From: Candidatus Woesearchaeota archaeon
GTDB lineage: Archaea > Nanobdellota > Nanobdellia > Woesearchaeales > BM511
NCBI GenBank assembly: GCA_002867475.1
Contig: PKTL01000033.1
Location: forward strand, 1-55,449
Direction of reading: 5' to 3'
Length of the DNA stretch: 55,449 bases
Shown: positions 14,201-37,195 of the stretch, piece by piece
Numbering within the stretch: position 1 is the first letter of the stretch
Layout of the letters: every line of letters starts with the position of its first letter
The notes under the pieces: model-generated
Told to the model about the DNA's origin: nothing
The model's input: the letters and a program-made list of their open reading frames with translations, nothing else
The model's database searches: none
Position numbers and translations under genes: made by a program

Positions 14201-14211
14201 TTTTATAAATA
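14201..14211 (+). promoter_or_regulatory. TATA box of the ileS leader
   Basis: TTTATAAAT (14202-14210) is centred about 26 nt before the ATG of the Ile-rich leader ORF at 14232. Archaeal spacing from TATA centre to transcription start is about 25 nt, so the transcript should start at the leader ATG. The ileS ATG itself is then about 130 nt into the mRNA. Confidence 0.6.
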
Positions 14212-14231: not shown

Positions 14232-14285
14232 ATGAATAAACTATTAATTGTTCAAATCATTATTTCTATCATTATTATAGCATAA
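14232..14285 (+). CDS. Putative Ile-rich leader peptide of ileS
   Basis: 17 codons: MNKLLIVQIIISIIIIA. Eight of 17 residues are Ile, spelled with ATT, ATC and ATA, so it is not a simple nucleotide repeat. It begins at the predicted transcription start (leaderless) and ends 76 bp before the isoleucyl-tRNA synthetase ATG. It is followed by an imperfect hairpin with a seven-T loop. This is what a leader peptide for ribosome-mediated attenuation by Ile-tRNA supply would look like. A chance hydrophobic ORF in AT-rich DNA, or a small membrane peptide, are alternatives. The Val-codon run before valS in the same window strengthens the leader reading. Confidence 0.6.
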   Translation: MNKLLIVQIIISIIIIA

Positions 14286-14287
14286 GC

Positions 14288-14310
14288 TCTCCTCCTTTTT
14301 TTGGTGGAGA
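14288..14310 (+). promoter_or_regulatory. Candidate attenuator hairpin / T-tract of ileS
   Basis: TCTCC (14288-14292) pairs with GGAGA (14306-14310); two C then pair with two G inside, around one mismatch, and the loop is seven T (14296-14302). A pyrimidine-rich segment followed by seven T, 11 nt after the leader stop codon, is also a plausible archaeal termination signal by itself. A second potential pairing links TCTATC inside the leader codons with GATAGA about 70 nt downstream. Confidence 0.45.
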
Positions 14311-14361
14311 AACACTTATAAGATAGATAGAGATTCAATAAACTAAAAATATGTGATCACA

Positions 14362-17300
14362 ATGAAACAAATACCAAACTATAACCATGCAGAAGTTGAA
14401 AAAGAAGTGACTGAATTCTGGGAAAAAAACCAGATCTATCCTAAGACTAAAGAGAAAAATAAAGGAAAGCAAAAATTCTATTATCTAGATGGACCACCAT
14501 ATACATCAGGAAAAATTCACATAGGTCATGCTTGGGGTAAGGCTCTTCGTGACATGGCTATGCGTTATAAGAGAATGAAAGGTTTTGATGTTTGGGATAG
14601 AAGCGGTTTTGATATGCATGGTCTGCCAATCTCCCATAAGGTTGAAGCTAAGCTTGGTATTAAAGGAAAAGATGCTATTGAAGAGCATGGTGTAAAAGAA
14701 TTCATTGAAGAATGTAAGAAGCTCGCAATTGATAATATGAACAGCATGATCGTTGACTTCAAACGTATCGGTGTCTGGATGGATTTCGACAATCCTTACA
14801 AACCAATTGATAACAGTTATATTGAAGGTATCTGGTGGCTGATAAAAAAGGCACATGAAAATAATAGATTGTATGAGGGTAAAAGAACCCTTACTTGGTG
14901 TAGTAATTGTGAAACTAGTGCAGCAAAGCACGAGCTCGAATACCAAAATGTCAAAGATAACTCTATCTTTGTGAAACTAAAGATAAAAAATACCGAAAAC
15001 GACTACCTTGTTGTTTGGACAACCACTCCTTGGACTATCCCATTCAACTTAGCGGTTATGGTTAATCCTGATGTTGATTATGTTAAATGTAGTGTGGAAG
15101 GTGAGAATTGGATTGTTGCAAAAGTACTTGCGGCACCATTTATCAAAACTGTATGCGATAAAGATTATGAAGTTATTGAAGAATTCAAAGGAGAAAAATT
15201 AGAAGGAACTGCTTACACTCATCCTTTCGAGAACGAGATTGATTATCCTAAGGCTGAAAAGCTTCACACAGTTCTTCTTAGTGCTGAATATGTTGATACT
15301 AGTGGAGGTTCTGGCCTTGTACACTGCGCCCCTGGTTGCGGCGGAGAGGATTATGAGGTTGGTTACAGAAATGGCCTTCCAGCATTCAATAATGTGAATG
15401 AAATGGGTGTTTTTGAAAATATGGGAAAGTTCACTGGCTTAAAAGCAAAAACCGATGATAAAGAATTTATAAGATTCATTGATGAATCTGGAGCACTTAT
15501 CGCTAAAACACCTATTGAGCATGATTATCCTCATTGTGAAAGATGTCATAAACCTGTAATTTTTAGAAGTACTAAACAATGGTTTTTCAAAGTTGAAGAT
15601 TTAACTGAAGAAATGAAAACATTGAATAAAGATATTGACTGGGTACCTTATTGGGCAGGTAGCAAACAATTTCATTCATGGCTTGATAACCTAAGAGATA
15701 ATAGCATCACTAAACAGATCCATTGGGGAACACCATTTCCTGTTTGGAAATGTGAAGATGAACTTTGCGGAAAATATACTGTTGTTGGAGATTCAAAAGA
15801 ATTAGGAAATCTTATTGGTGAAGAGAATGTTCCTAAAGACTTGCATAAACCTTACATCGATGAAGTGACCATACCTTGCGAATGTGGTAAAAAACAAATA
15901 AAAAATCCTGATGTATTAGATGTTTGGGTTGATGCTGGTTGCAGCAGTTGGCTTTGCCTTGATTACCCCGTAAGAACTGATTTATTTGATGAAATGTTCC
16001 CTGCTGATTTTATTTTAGAAGGTAAAGATCAAATTAGAGGATGGTTCAATTTACTTTTTGTTGCTAGTATGGTTTCAATGAAAAAACCAAGTTTTAAAGC
16101 TTGTTACATGCATGGTTTCATCAATGATAAACATGGTGAAAAATTCTCTAAAACCAAAGGTAATGGTATTAGCCCTTATGAAGTGATTGATAAACTTGGA
16201 GCTGATACATTAAGATATTATTCAATAGGTGGAGCTAACCCAGGTCTTGATTTGAATTATAATGAAGACGATGCTAATTTATGTTTTAGAAACCTAAGCG
16301 TTTTTTGGAATCTTCATAAATATGTTATTGATACTTCAAGAACTATCGGTAAGAAACCTTCAAAAACAACAAATCATAGTGTTGAAGATAGATATATAAT
16401 ATCCAAACTTAATTCCACAATCAAAAAAGTTACTAAACATCTTGATAAGTATGAGTTAAATGTTGTTCCTGGAATCATTGAAGATTTATTTATGGAATTA
16501 TCAAGGACTTATGTTCAACTTATCAGAGATAAGCTTGTTCTTGGTACTGATGAAGAAAAAGAAAACATTCTTTACACTATGAATAAGGTTTTTAGTGAAG
16601 GTCTTAAACTTTTTTCAGTTGTTAGCCCTTACATTAGTGAAGCAATGTATCAAAATTTTAAAAATGAATTTAATCTTAAAACGGTGAGCATTCACCTTTT
16701 TGATTGGCCAGAATTCGATGAGAATGTGATTGATGAAAGTCTTGAATCCAATTTTGAAATTGCTAAAGATACTATTCAATCAATTCTTGCAAGCAGAGAG
16801 AAAGCATCACTTGGTGTTAGGTGGCCTGTTAAGGAAATTGTTATTGTTCCAAAATCTGATGAAATTAAACAAGCTATAACAAATCTTCAGGATTTAATAA
16901 TGGTTCAAACAAATGTTAAAGAGATCAAGTTTGTTGAGAAATTTGAAGGTGTTACTAAAAAGCTTGAACCAAACTATAAAGCGATGGGTCAGGATTTTGG
17001 AAAGAATGTTCAAACTATTGCTAAAGTTATTCCTGAACTAAATCCAGACAAGGTTTTATCTGATGAAGGAGATATGGTAAATGTTGACGGGCATGATTTT
17101 ATTGTAAAAGAAAAACATATCAAGGTTAGCCGAGAAGTGTCAGAAGATTTTGCTTCAGGTGAATATAAGCAAGGAGAACTTTACCTCGATAAGACAAGAA
17201 CTTTTACTCTTGACGCTGAAGGCTATAGCAGAGAAGTTATTCGAAGGATACAGGATACAAGAAAAACTGCTGGATTGCAAAAAACTGATAATATCAATCT

Positions 17301-17466
17301 TGTGTTGATTGTTAGTGATTCATTGAAGAAGTCTCTTGAAATGTTTGCTGATGACATAAAGGTCAAATGTGGTGTTAAAGAATTAGCTTTTGAAGGAACA
17401 GGAAGTAATTCAAGCGAAGCAAATATTAAAGGTGAAGAAGTCAAGATCTTCTTTGATAAAATTTAA
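14362..17466 (+). CDS. ileS: Isoleucyl-tRNA synthetase
   Basis: 1034 aa from the ATG at 14362. A GTG nine bases upstream is in frame, but its GTGATC is better read as the Shine-Dalgarno sequence. HIGH is intact (KIHIGHA, about residue 51-57) and KMSKS appears as KFSKTKG (about 594). The CP1 editing domain is present (VVWTTTPWTIPFN, GLVHCAPGCGGEDYEVG). Several CxxC pairs around residues 185, 395 and 470-505 probably bind zinc. The C-terminal anticodon-binding region is complete. It charges tRNA-Ile and edits mischarged Val. Expression may be controlled by the Ile-rich leader ORF just upstream. Confidence 0.95.
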   Translation: MKQIPNYNHAEVEKEVTEFWEKNQIYPKTKEKNKGKQKFYYLDGPPYTSGKIHIGHAWGKALRDMAMRYKRMKGFDVWDRSGFDMHGLPISHKVEAKLGIKGKDAIEEHGVKEFIEECKKLAIDNMNSMIVDFKRIGVWMDFDNPYKPIDNSYIEGIWWLIKKAHENNRLYEGKRTLTWCSNCETSAAKHELEYQNVKDNSIFVKLKIKNTENDYLVVWTTTPWTIPFNLAVMVNPDVDYVKCSVEGENWIVAKVLAAPFIKTVCDKDYEVIEEFKGEKLEGTAYTHPFENEIDYPKAEKLHTVLLSAEYVDTSGGSGLVHCAPGCGGEDYEVGYRNGLPAFNNVNEMGVFENMGKFTGLKAKTDDKEFIRFIDESGALIAKTPIEHDYPHCERCHKPVIFRSTKQWFFKVEDLTEEMKTLNKDIDWVPYWAGSKQFHSWLDNLRDNSITKQIHWGTPFPVWKCEDELCGKYTVVGDSKELGNLIGEENVPKDLHKPYIDEVTIPCECGKKQIKNPDVLDVWVDAGCSSWLCLDYPVRTDLFDEMFPADFILEGKDQIRGWFNLLFVASMVSMKKPSFKACYMHGFINDKHGEKFSKTKGNGISPYEVIDKLGADTLRYYSIGGANPGLDLNYNEDDANLCFRNLSVFWNLHKYVIDTSRTIGKKPSKTTNHSVEDRYIISKLNSTIKKVTKHLDKYELNVVPGIIEDLFMELSRTYVQLIRDKLVLGTDEEKENILYTMNKVFSEGLKLFSVVSPYISEAMYQNFKNEFNLKTVSIHLFDWPEFDENVIDESLESNFEIAKDTIQSILASREKASLGVRWPVKEIVIVPKSDEIKQAITNLQDLIMVQTNVKEIKFVEKFEGVTKKLEPNYKAMGQDFGKNVQTIAKVIPELNPDKVLSDEGDMVNVDGHDFIVKEKHIKVSREVSEDFASGEYKQGELYLDKTRTFTLDAEGYSREVIRRIQDTRKTAGLQKTDNINLVLIVSDSLKKSLEMFADDIKVKCGVKELAFEGTGSNSSEANIKGEEVKIFFDKI

Positions 17467-34567: not shown

Positions 34568-37075
34568 TCAATCACATATTTCAACATTAAAACCCTCTTT
34601 TTCTTCAAAGACGATCTCTTGTATCTTACTTGCACTTTTCAGATCTTCTATTACAAATTTTATAAATTCAATATTTTCCAAGCTAGTCTTTATCACTGCT
34701 TTAGATATATCTACTTTCAAGCTCAGACCTTTTTGACTCTTGTATTTTCTTGCTTCAGCTAACACTTCCACAAGAAGGTCTCCTGCTTTGATAGCACCAT
34801 CATTTATACTTCCTGAAATAGGCCATTGTGCACGATGGACTGAATCAATACCTTCAATATCTGCAAAATATAATTGATAAACTTCTTCAGTTATGTAAGG
34901 CATAAAGGGTGCGAAAAGCTTTATCACATTTGAAAACGCAGTATATAATGAATATTTCCCACTTTCAACTTTTTCTTTTCCCCACTCATCAGGATTATAC
35001 ATCCTATCTTTGACTATCTCAAGATAATTATCACACAAGTCTTGCCAAAAGAAAAGCTCAACCTCAGATTTAGCTTTACTATATTCATATTTATCGAAAC
35101 TTTTTGTTGCAGTATCTATAACCTTATTAAGTTTTGATATTAGCCAAGCATCAATTATTTCCAGCTTTGGAGCATCTCCTTCTGGTTTATACCCATCAAG
35201 CTGCATTATCGCAAATTTAGTAGCGTTCCACATCTTTGTTGTTGTCTTGTTTGCAGTTACAAGGTCTTTTTCCTGGAAGGGCATATCTTCGCCCAATTTT
35301 GAACCTGCAGCCCAATATCTTATAGCATCACTATTATATTTATCGTGCATCTCCCTAGGATCAACAACATTTACTTTGCTCTTGCTCATCTTTTTTCCAT
35401 GAGGGTCAAGAGCAAAACCACTTATCGCAACATCCTTGAAAGGATTGGCATCATATAACAAATTATTTTTTGACATCGTATAGAATAACCAGAAGTTTAT
35501 GATATCATGAGCTTGAGGCCTAAGATCCATAGGAAACAATTTTTTTCTCATATCTTCATTTTTGACATAAACAAGAGGAAGCTCCGGACTTGAACCGCTT
35601 GTAAACCAAGTGTCCATTGTATCTGTTTCAGGTATCAATTCCAGATCTTTTGGTGCAGAATTAGGTCTATCTACAACAGGATCTATAGGTAATTGATCTA
35701 CATCTGGGAGATATTCATTACCTTCCTTATCATACCATACAGGTATTGGAATCCCATAATTTCTTTGCCTACTAAAACCCCAATCCCAGTTCAATCCTTT
35801 TATCCAATTCTCAAGCCTGATCTTCATATGTGTCGGGTACCAGTTGAATTTATTTGCCATCTCAAAAAGATATTCCTTTTTATCAAGATACTCAACATAC
35901 CATTGGTATGAAACTATATATTCAACCTCTACCTGGTTTCTTTCAGATACGTTGACTACTTGCTCTTTTTTCTCATTGAATATTATATCACCAGTTTCTT
36001 TCATAGAAATTATTATGTCTTTTCTTGCTTCTTCAGCAAGCTTTCCTTCATAATCTCCGCCAAGATTATTTAATCTTCCTGCCTTATCTATAAGTTCTAC
36101 AGGTGTTGCTTTATGACGTGACACCCATTCAATATCCTCTGCACCGCCATATGTGCAAAAATATGCTATTCCCGTACCAAAATCGGCTTTTACGGCTACA
36201 TCATGAGAAATCTCCACAACTTTATCAACTGAAGGAATCTTTACTTTTTCACCGATAAGATTTTGTCCTTTTAGTTCTTCAACGATTTCATATTCAAAAT
36301 CTTTGAATTTTTCTTCGTATGTTGCTTTTCCAGTGATCCAATATTCATCTCCTACTTTTAGTTTTACATATTCGCCCGAATCTTCAACACTCATCCCAAC
36401 TACTGCAAAACAAAGTTCAGGTCTTGTAGTCGCATATATGACATAAGTATTAACTGAACCTTCAATTTTTGCTTTCACATAATTCAGATATGCTTTTCTT
36501 GTCTCATCTTCAAGTTCTGCTTGAGCAATTGCTGATTGGAATACTCTGTCCCACATGATCGGTCCTTTTCTTCGTTTTATCAATCCTTTATTGTATAAGT
36601 CTATGAATGTTCTTTGGCTTAATCTTCTACTATCCTCATCAATGGTTGAATAGGTATAATCGAAATCACAACTCATTCCAAGATCTTTCCAATCCTGAAT
36701 GAATTCAGCTCTATGTTCATTTACATAATCAAGGCAAACTTTTATCTCTTCAGCACGACTCATTTTCTTAACATCAAGCTTTAATTCTTTTTGGACAAGT
36801 TTTATTGTTGGAAGACCATTATCATCTGTACCAAAAGGATAGAAGACTTCAAAACCTTTCATTCGTTTGTATCTTGCGATAAAATCCTGTTGGGAAAAAC
36901 TAAATGCGTGTCCTATATGCATCCTTCCACTCATCGTTGGAGGAGGAGTATCTATACTATAGACTTCTTTTTTTTAATCTTCATTGAATTTATATGTTCC
37001 TTTCTCTTCCCAGTATTTCTGCCATTTCTTTTCGCTCTCATGAGCATCATATCTCTTGGGTAACTCTTTTTCCAT
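34568..37075 (-). pseudogene. valS: Valyl-tRNA synthetase with in-frame TAA at codon 34
   Basis: The frame from ATG 37075 starts MEKELPKRYDAHESEKKWQ, the usual ValRS N-terminus, reaches FNED and meets TAA (36974-36976). It then continues in frame with KKEVYSIDTPPPTMSGRMHIGHA and the rest of a complete ValRS (822 codons in all). HIGH, KMSKS (GKKMSKSKV), the editing domain and the anticodon-binding domain are intact. The next ATG, 36934, lies inside the ATP-site region and would drop the PPPT strand. Because ValRS is essential, a base error beside the A8 run, readthrough, or a second copy elsewhere are the options. Preceded by a Val-codon leader ORF. Confidence 0.85.
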
Positions 37076-37110
37076 TTTATCTTATCTGCCTCAAATAATT
37101 ATTAGAAATA

Positions 37111-37144
37111 AGTTGTCAATGAGCGTGGTTATCCCACCACAACT
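37111..37144 (-). promoter_or_regulatory. Candidate valS attenuator hairpins
   Basis: On the minus-strand RNA, AGUUGU (37144-37139, inside the Val codons) can pair with ACAACU (37116-37111), followed by the U-rich UAUUUCUAAUAAUUAUUU. A nested pairing GUGGU (37140-37136) with ACCAC (37129-37125) also uses Val codons. A ribosome stalled on the Val codons would open both stems. The terminator-like outer stem plus U-rich tail and its overlap with the Val run fit an attenuator. Confidence 0.5.
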
Positions 37145-37164
37145 ACGACCACTGTCTTAAACAT
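37129..37164 (-). CDS. Putative Val leader peptide of valS
   Basis: 11 codons: M-F-K-T-V-V-V-V-V-V-G, then TAA. The six consecutive Val codons are GTG, GTC, GTA, GTT, GTG, GTG, so all four synonyms are used. This argues for selection on the amino acid rather than a nucleotide repeat. The ATG at 37164 lies about 25 nt from the centre of a TATA element (37181-37195), so translation would begin at the very 5' end of the mRNA. It ends 53 nt before the valS ATG. This matches a classical leader peptide sensing charged tRNA-Val. Confidence 0.72.
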   Translation of the reverse strand: MFKTVVVVVVG

Positions 37165-37180
37165 ATTTTAATGAATGGTC

Positions 37181-37195
37181 ATTTTATATTTAAAC
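37181..37195. promoter_or_regulatory. Shared TATA element of divergent valS leader and trpS
   Basis: ATTTTATATTTAAAC reads as a TATA box on both strands, centred near 37188. On the minus strand it is about 25 nt from the valS leader ATG (leaderless). On the plus strand it predicts a start near 37213, leaving about 36 nt of 5' UTR before the likely trpS ATG at 37249. Confidence 0.55.

Follow-up and report, generated by a model that had tools for sequence, protein, structure and literature searches.

The question raised by this locus is whether an archaeal valyl-tRNA synthetase gene can be controlled by a ribosome that reads the valine codons placed in front of it. In Bacteria, leader-peptide attenuators with runs of cognate codons are textbook examples of gene control. 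For Archaea, no leader-peptide attenuation was known as of 2021 (PMC8448881), a tool paper from 2023 mentions archaea in passing in this connection, with no example in the passage concerned (PMC10219788), and no archaeal leader-peptide attenuator was found in our own literature search, which was limited to open-access sources. In the window, i.e. the whole stretch of 55,449 nucleotides that was analysed here, the original prediction had placed an ORF with six Val codons of mixed composition 53 nt before valS, and its coordinates, strand and sequence have all been confirmed. The ORF and its surroundings comprise the following features:

37129-37164, minus strand: leader ORF of valS, MFKTVVVVVVG followed by a stop, with six Val codons, the last of them one codon before the stop
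37185-37194, minus strand: TATA box TTTAAATATA of the valS leader, with the first T lying 30 nt ahead of the leader ATG
37125-37140, minus strand: GUGGU-GGGAUA-ACCAC stem-loop across the valS leader stop (p = 0.13), absent from the other Val leaders
37117-37121, minus strand: CAUUG motif of the valS leader, 7 nt past the leader stop
37100-37116, minus strand: U-rich, G-poor tract behind CAUUG, a proposed premature-termination element, whose U/G composition is shared across 26 leaders
37089-37092, minus strand: GAGG, a weak Shine-Dalgarno (SD) site lying 13 nt ahead of the valS ATG
34568-37075, minus strand: valS (valine-tRNA ligase), with the frame split in the assembly by an in-frame TAA at 36974-36976

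The leader reads ATG TTT AAG ACA GTG GTC GTA GTT GTG GTG GGA TAA (minus strand, 37164-37129), so that four different Val codons occur within the run of six, and a gap of 53 nt separates it from the valS ATG at 37075. It is the only place in the 55 kb window with at least five successive GTN codons, for which 0.02 occurrences would be expected. On the opposite strand it has trpS as its neighbour. The TATA spacing that had been claimed was found as well, since TTTAAATATA starts 30 nt before the ATG, and a leaderless mRNA is therefore predicted; that transcription starts at the leader ATG and not downstream of it is supported by this spacing only. The TAA within valS falls on codon 34 (36976-36974, minus strand), a position occupied by a sense codon in relatives (NPDTKKEVY in G001, a relative from a second genus), and the frame is otherwise intact; it could be an assembly error, a polymorphism or a real lesion. 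A second synthetase gene of the same assembly, of the tyrosyl type (contig C30, 20587-21444, minus strand), also has a single in-frame TAA, between DESRK and LTKKE, and this assembly holds another tyrS.

The original prediction further held that a Val-run ORF would be kept before valS while the bases drift, and this has been borne out in a second genus of the window's family, in a second family (six genomes) and in three families beyond these. Our collection includes four genomes of the window's family, one per genus. In G001 the leader MSAYVVVVVG ends 54 nt before valS, with the same Gly-stop ending as in the window, and valS is again divergent from trpS. G003, in which a TATA box lies directly before valS, has no Val leader, and the fourth genome is uninformative, because its valS contig is cut off. 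The second family (f63, ten genomes) was reached by an order-wide search, and Val leaders were identified in six of its genomes (MYSIWKTLSVVVAN, MNIILKSVFVVVVN, MYSLYQTLIVIVVS, MYQLFKTVSVVVV, MYLVSGIFSVVVA and MNRLLKVYMVLVV). In one further genome, G222, the Val leader of valS is one base out of frame, with the TATA box and a CAGCG element intact, which is either recent decay or a sequencing error. Genomes of another family, f84, have no valS leader at the five loci inspected; their ValRS domain is 65-69% identical to that of the window, closer than those of the window's own family members, and judging from this protein likeness a transfer of the valS gene is possible.

Cognate leaders are not confined to valine. 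A search for synthetase families in 14 genomes, drawn from the two main families, revealed leaders with an Ile run (ending in IISIIII) before ileS in ten genomes, including that of the window, which thus contains a second cognate leader (one of the ileS homology queries consisted of window sequence at residues 1-50 and of a generic continuation at residues 51-90, used as bait only):

14202-14211, plus strand: TATA box TTTATAAATA of the ileS leader, read from the sequence
14232-14285, plus strand: leader ORF of ileS, MNKLLIVQIIISIIIIA followed by a stop
14262-14280, plus strand: 5' arm of the Ile-leader hairpin, formed by the Ile/Ser codons UUUCUAUCAUUAUU
14288-14310, plus strand: inner hairpin UCUCCUCC-UUUUUUU-GGUGGAGA, directly past the leader stop
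14317-14334, plus strand: 3' arm of the Ile-leader hairpin, UAUAAGAUAGAUAGAGAU, which pairs with the Ile codon run
14362-17466, plus strand: ileS (isoleucine-tRNA ligase)

Leu-run leaders (with LLLL) are present at 8 of 10 leuS genes (e.g. MKTGLLLLR and MNNLGLALLLLL) and Thr-run leaders (ending in TTTTTC) at 8 of 12 thrS genes (e.g. MIIDFFETVVGFFILLTSSDTTTTTC), while two serS genes have Ser-rich leaders (MRSTSSSIS and MKYKSISGSSI). Two bacterial-type aspS genes are preceded by MANNNINNNNNDR and MYINNNRDNDQ, which are Asn-rich as well as Asp-rich; the Asn codons may hint that bacterial-type AspRS charges tRNA-Asn too. No convincing cognate leader was found at pheS, tyrS, trpS, proS or lysS in these 14 genomes; within the two main families, a leader was not detected for about one third of the valS, ileS and thrS genes. 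The peptides have only the run in common, and the residue of the run switches with the downstream gene. When 13 gene types are set against 20 amino acids, the leader matches fall on the diagonal: with a TATA box required, 31 cognate matches are obtained among 135 genes, whereas 2,000 permutations of the labels average 3.1 and never exceed 9. Comparison between genes thus strongly supports sensing by codon identity, and we have very little doubt that these leaders sense amino acids.

It could be argued that short homopolymeric ORFs arise by chance in AT-rich intergenic DNA, and in a background set of 457 genes (20 spaced stretches, 400 kb in total, from the complete relative G120) as many as 69 are preceded by a short ORF in which one residue takes up four of seven codons, as long as the promoter is ignored. 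Once a TATA box is required, however, the background drops to a single gene, whereas a cognate leader is kept at 25 of 48 Val, Ile, Leu and Thr synthetase genes. Together with the matrix of cognate matches, the mixing of synonymous codons within the runs, the TATA spacing and the conserved post-stop features (among them the CAUUG element), this refutes the chance explanation, to which we give virtually no credence. The score thresholds were chosen after the first leaders had already been seen, and the genomes are kin to one another and are metagenome assemblies; the leader sequences nevertheless diverge too strongly for the leaders to be copies of each other, and except for the Ile leaders they are too diverse for a covariance model. 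The lone background match, which surfaced unsought, is a Tyr-run leader, MHKPAAQSKYSYYYYC, before the gene for phenylalanine 4-hydroxylase, an enzyme that makes Tyr (G120, around 10550-10683 of L276; also L292). This combination was seen in one of 14 related genomes, and the gene appears to have been acquired.

The leaders share a common anatomy. In 32 of 38 cases the leader ATG is preceded by a TATA box that starts at a distance of 29-33 nt, compared to 5% in shuffled sequences; the cognate run ends 0-2 codons from the stop in all leaders; synonymous codons are mixed within the runs; and the leaders are separated from their genes by 42-129 nt. SD-like motifs are present at 34 of 38 leader-bearing genes vs 28 of 83 for the other, leader-free synthetase genes. 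As far as can be read from sequence alone, the promoter lies upstream of the leader, and leader and gene would be on one transcript; by the promoter spacing, the leader start would be a 5'-terminal AUG, although the transcript end has not been mapped. In addition to the codon identity, the promoter position and the geometry between run and stop, we observe two conserved architectures behind the stop.

One of these is a short element that follows the leaders for Val, Leu, Thr, Ser and Asp, 26 of 28 of which have CAxYG (typically CAUUG) within 16 nt past the stop, compared to approximately 3% in shuffled sequences. Its consensus is UUCAUUGKC, the next 16 nt are 51% U and 3% G (26 leaders), and the distance from its C to the first base of the last cognate codon is 9-18 nt (median 15). 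It also occurs in two of the three Val leaders found outside the two main families and is absent from Ile leaders. A general gene-end signal can be ruled out, because motifs of the CAUUG type are found at only 13 of 574 ordinary gene ends (2.3%). In the post-stop regions of the 26 leaders, no consistent RNA pairing partner of the motif was found, and U4 tracts, considered as classical archaeal terminators, do not exceed the expectation from their own composition, except weakly in Thr leaders. By this distance, the U-rich, G-poor element of the non-Ile leaders would be within the reach of a stalled ribosome; no factor-binding data are available for it.

The other architecture is a hairpin of the Ile leaders, formed by pairing between the codon run UUUCUAUCAUUAUUAU and a GAUAGA-type arm further downstream, with an inner hairpin enclosed by the two (mean z -2.4, combined p 3.5e-14). 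The sequence of the inner hairpin varies between genomes and its pairing is kept, and the structure recurs in G106, a member of another family. There is no U-run behind the hairpin in Ile leaders, and the output step may therefore differ between the leader classes. Thr leaders have a stem across the stop with a paired change (ACCUGC-UAG-GCAGGU vs ACCUCU-UAG-AGAGGU), which explains why their last codon is Cys or Ser. The original prediction had proposed two pairings over the Val codons of the window, GUGGU/ACCAC and AGUUGU/ACAACU; both are present in the sequence, but neither is conserved or better than in shuffled sequences, and they have been rejected as the switch. As the Val leaders have no conserved stem, these pairings are not the general switch. 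A classical terminator hairpin is likewise not recognizable in these leaders: Val leaders lack a conserved pair, Ile leaders a U-run, and the stems of Thr and Leu leaders are short.

Outside the two main families, rarer cognate leaders have been identified in six further families, and an early view that leaders are limited to the two families was dropped after this broader sampling. TATA-preceded Val leaders occur at 3 of 82 valS genes (ending in GVVVVA in G047; MICVVVVVA in G088; MKIIIHVVVE in G026) and TATA-preceded Ile leaders at 4 of 59 ileS genes (G047, G044, G106 and G092); most genomes outside the two main families have no detectable leader. Of the six further families, two have the CAUUG element and at least one has the Ile hairpin. 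The trait is patchy across the order, and the IleRS tree requires at least three gains or losses of the leader. A very divergent IleRS, on a very long branch (G242), is also preceded by an Ile leader with the hairpin, hence leaders may arise on acquired genes or travel with them.

We conclude that the ORF in the window is probably a regulatory leader peptide gene of a cognate family, in which ribosome stalling controls synthetase genes. The original interpretation, attenuation of valS through its Val codons, is supported by the comparison with relatives and with other synthetases; the regulation itself has not been measured. According to the mechanism that we propose, transcription would begin at the leader AUG and a ribosome would translate the leader at once. 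If charged cognate tRNA is scarce, the ribosome is inferred to stall on the codon run, and its downstream edge would reach UUCAUUG and the U-rich, G-poor element; in Ile leaders it would instead melt the hairpin to which the codon run contributes the 5' arm. Under starvation the element would thus be masked, RNA polymerase would read on past the early termination point, and the synthetase would be made from its own SD site. With plenty of amino acid, the ribosome would finish and leave, and the exposed U-rich element would cause an early end of transcription, most likely via FttA/aCPSF1. No RNA, ribosome or expression data are available for these inferred steps. Archaeal terminators are U-tracts, for which no hairpin is required. 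FttA/aCPSF1 binds U-rich RNA (PMC11616081, PMC8716108), and together with such hairpin-free termination this makes a factor-dependent stop the most economical output. We nonetheless regard premature transcription termination of this kind as a tentative proposal, which may well prove wrong, and the identification of FttA as the factor involved as less secure still. It is possible, without being established, that leaderless peptides reading tRNA charging, with stalled ribosomes that block factor-dependent termination at the UUCAUUG/U-rich element, form a general archaeal system; equally provisional is the suggestion that it controls most branched-chain and Thr synthetases, as well as acquired biosynthetic genes such as that for phenylalanine hydroxylase.

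The output could alternatively be translational, with alternative RNA folds gating the SD site of the synthetase and transcription uninvolved. The SD-like motifs at 34 of 38 leader-bearing genes would fit this, as would the proximity of the Ile hairpin to the SD site in cases with a short gap (G241, G235). However, the mean predicted SD accessibility stays flat, at 0.46 in free RNA, 0.45-0.47 with a ribosome on the run and 0.48 with one at the stop, pairing between the post-stop element and the SD site is within chance, and the gaps extend over 42-129 nt. Sequestration of the SD site was rejected on the first two of these grounds; translational control more broadly remains possible, but the accessibility models gave it no support, and we consider it unlikely. 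Codon runs that act as RNA and not through translation, either as a protein site or as a tRNA-binding riboswitch of the T-box type, would agree with the participation of the Ile and Thr runs in conserved pairing; yet the reading frame is preserved along with its ATG and stop, and a conserved structure is lacking in Val leaders. In Rfam, the region of the valS leader matched no family up to E = 1, and that of ileS gave just two matches at chance level, far below the gathering score. All this leaves the reading of the runs as RNA highly improbable. Functional micropeptides, or a mere boost of translation by reinitiation, are more improbable again. In bacteria, a short ORF near a gene can increase the translation of that gene when it lies downstream (PMC4833913), but a review reports little coupling beyond 30 nt (PMC12548453), which is exceeded by all gaps here, and peptides that share only a run whose residue tracks the gene are not what micropeptides would predict.

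If ribosome stalling with early termination is true, this would be the first archaeal mechanism of attenuation, with a termination logic of its own. Leaders that track the amino acid across six kinds of synthetases would show that ribosome speed and expression are coupled as in bacteria, on different transcription and termination machinery. They would also offer a ready-made archaeal test of transcription-translation coupling and of control by FttA, and would show at codon level which amino acids are limiting in these largely uncultured organisms.

The system resembles T-box riboswitches in that synthetase genes would be controlled by tRNA charging; there, however, a structured RNA senses tRNA directly and without translation, and the T-box covariance model was not matched upstream of valS or ileS. 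Attenuation of the tna type is Rho-dependent, and the leaders described here share with the cys/tna type a codon run beside the stop, the absence of a hairpin and, except for the Ile leaders, a pyrimidine-rich site downstream that a ribosome might mask; Rho is bacterial, and FttA/aCPSF1 would be its archaeal analogue, for which no test data exist. According to PMC1262725, Rho-dependence is proposed for candidate cys leaders of Mycobacterium that lack terminators, and Streptomyces has candidate leader attenuators upstream of leuS and trpS. Classical attenuators of the trp/leuS type, with examples in Actinobacteria (PMC1262725) and with leuS and trpS among their known bacterial targets, likewise have a leader ORF with cognate codons and predicted stalling on uncharged tRNA, but they rely on GC-rich terminator and antiterminator hairpins with poly-U, a conserved pair of which is missing here. 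A further parallel comes from mycobacteria, where, as far as two later papers relate it (Canestrari et al. 2020, via PMC9031893 and PMC9094748), leaderless polycysteine ORFs act as attenuators: in both cases a leaderless first ORF has a run of one codon type before genes for that amino acid, with attenuation by ribosome speed. The mycobacterial ORFs, however, belong to a bacterium, are specific for Cys and precede operonic genes, whereas those reported here are archaeal, have a TATA promoter and a shared post-stop element, and cover at least five amino acids, mostly at aminoacyl-tRNA synthetases. Given very short ORFs in another domain of life, the likeness is likely to be convergent. The best reading is that synthetase genes are attenuated through stalled ribosomes in an archaeal lineage that is Woesearchaeota-like.
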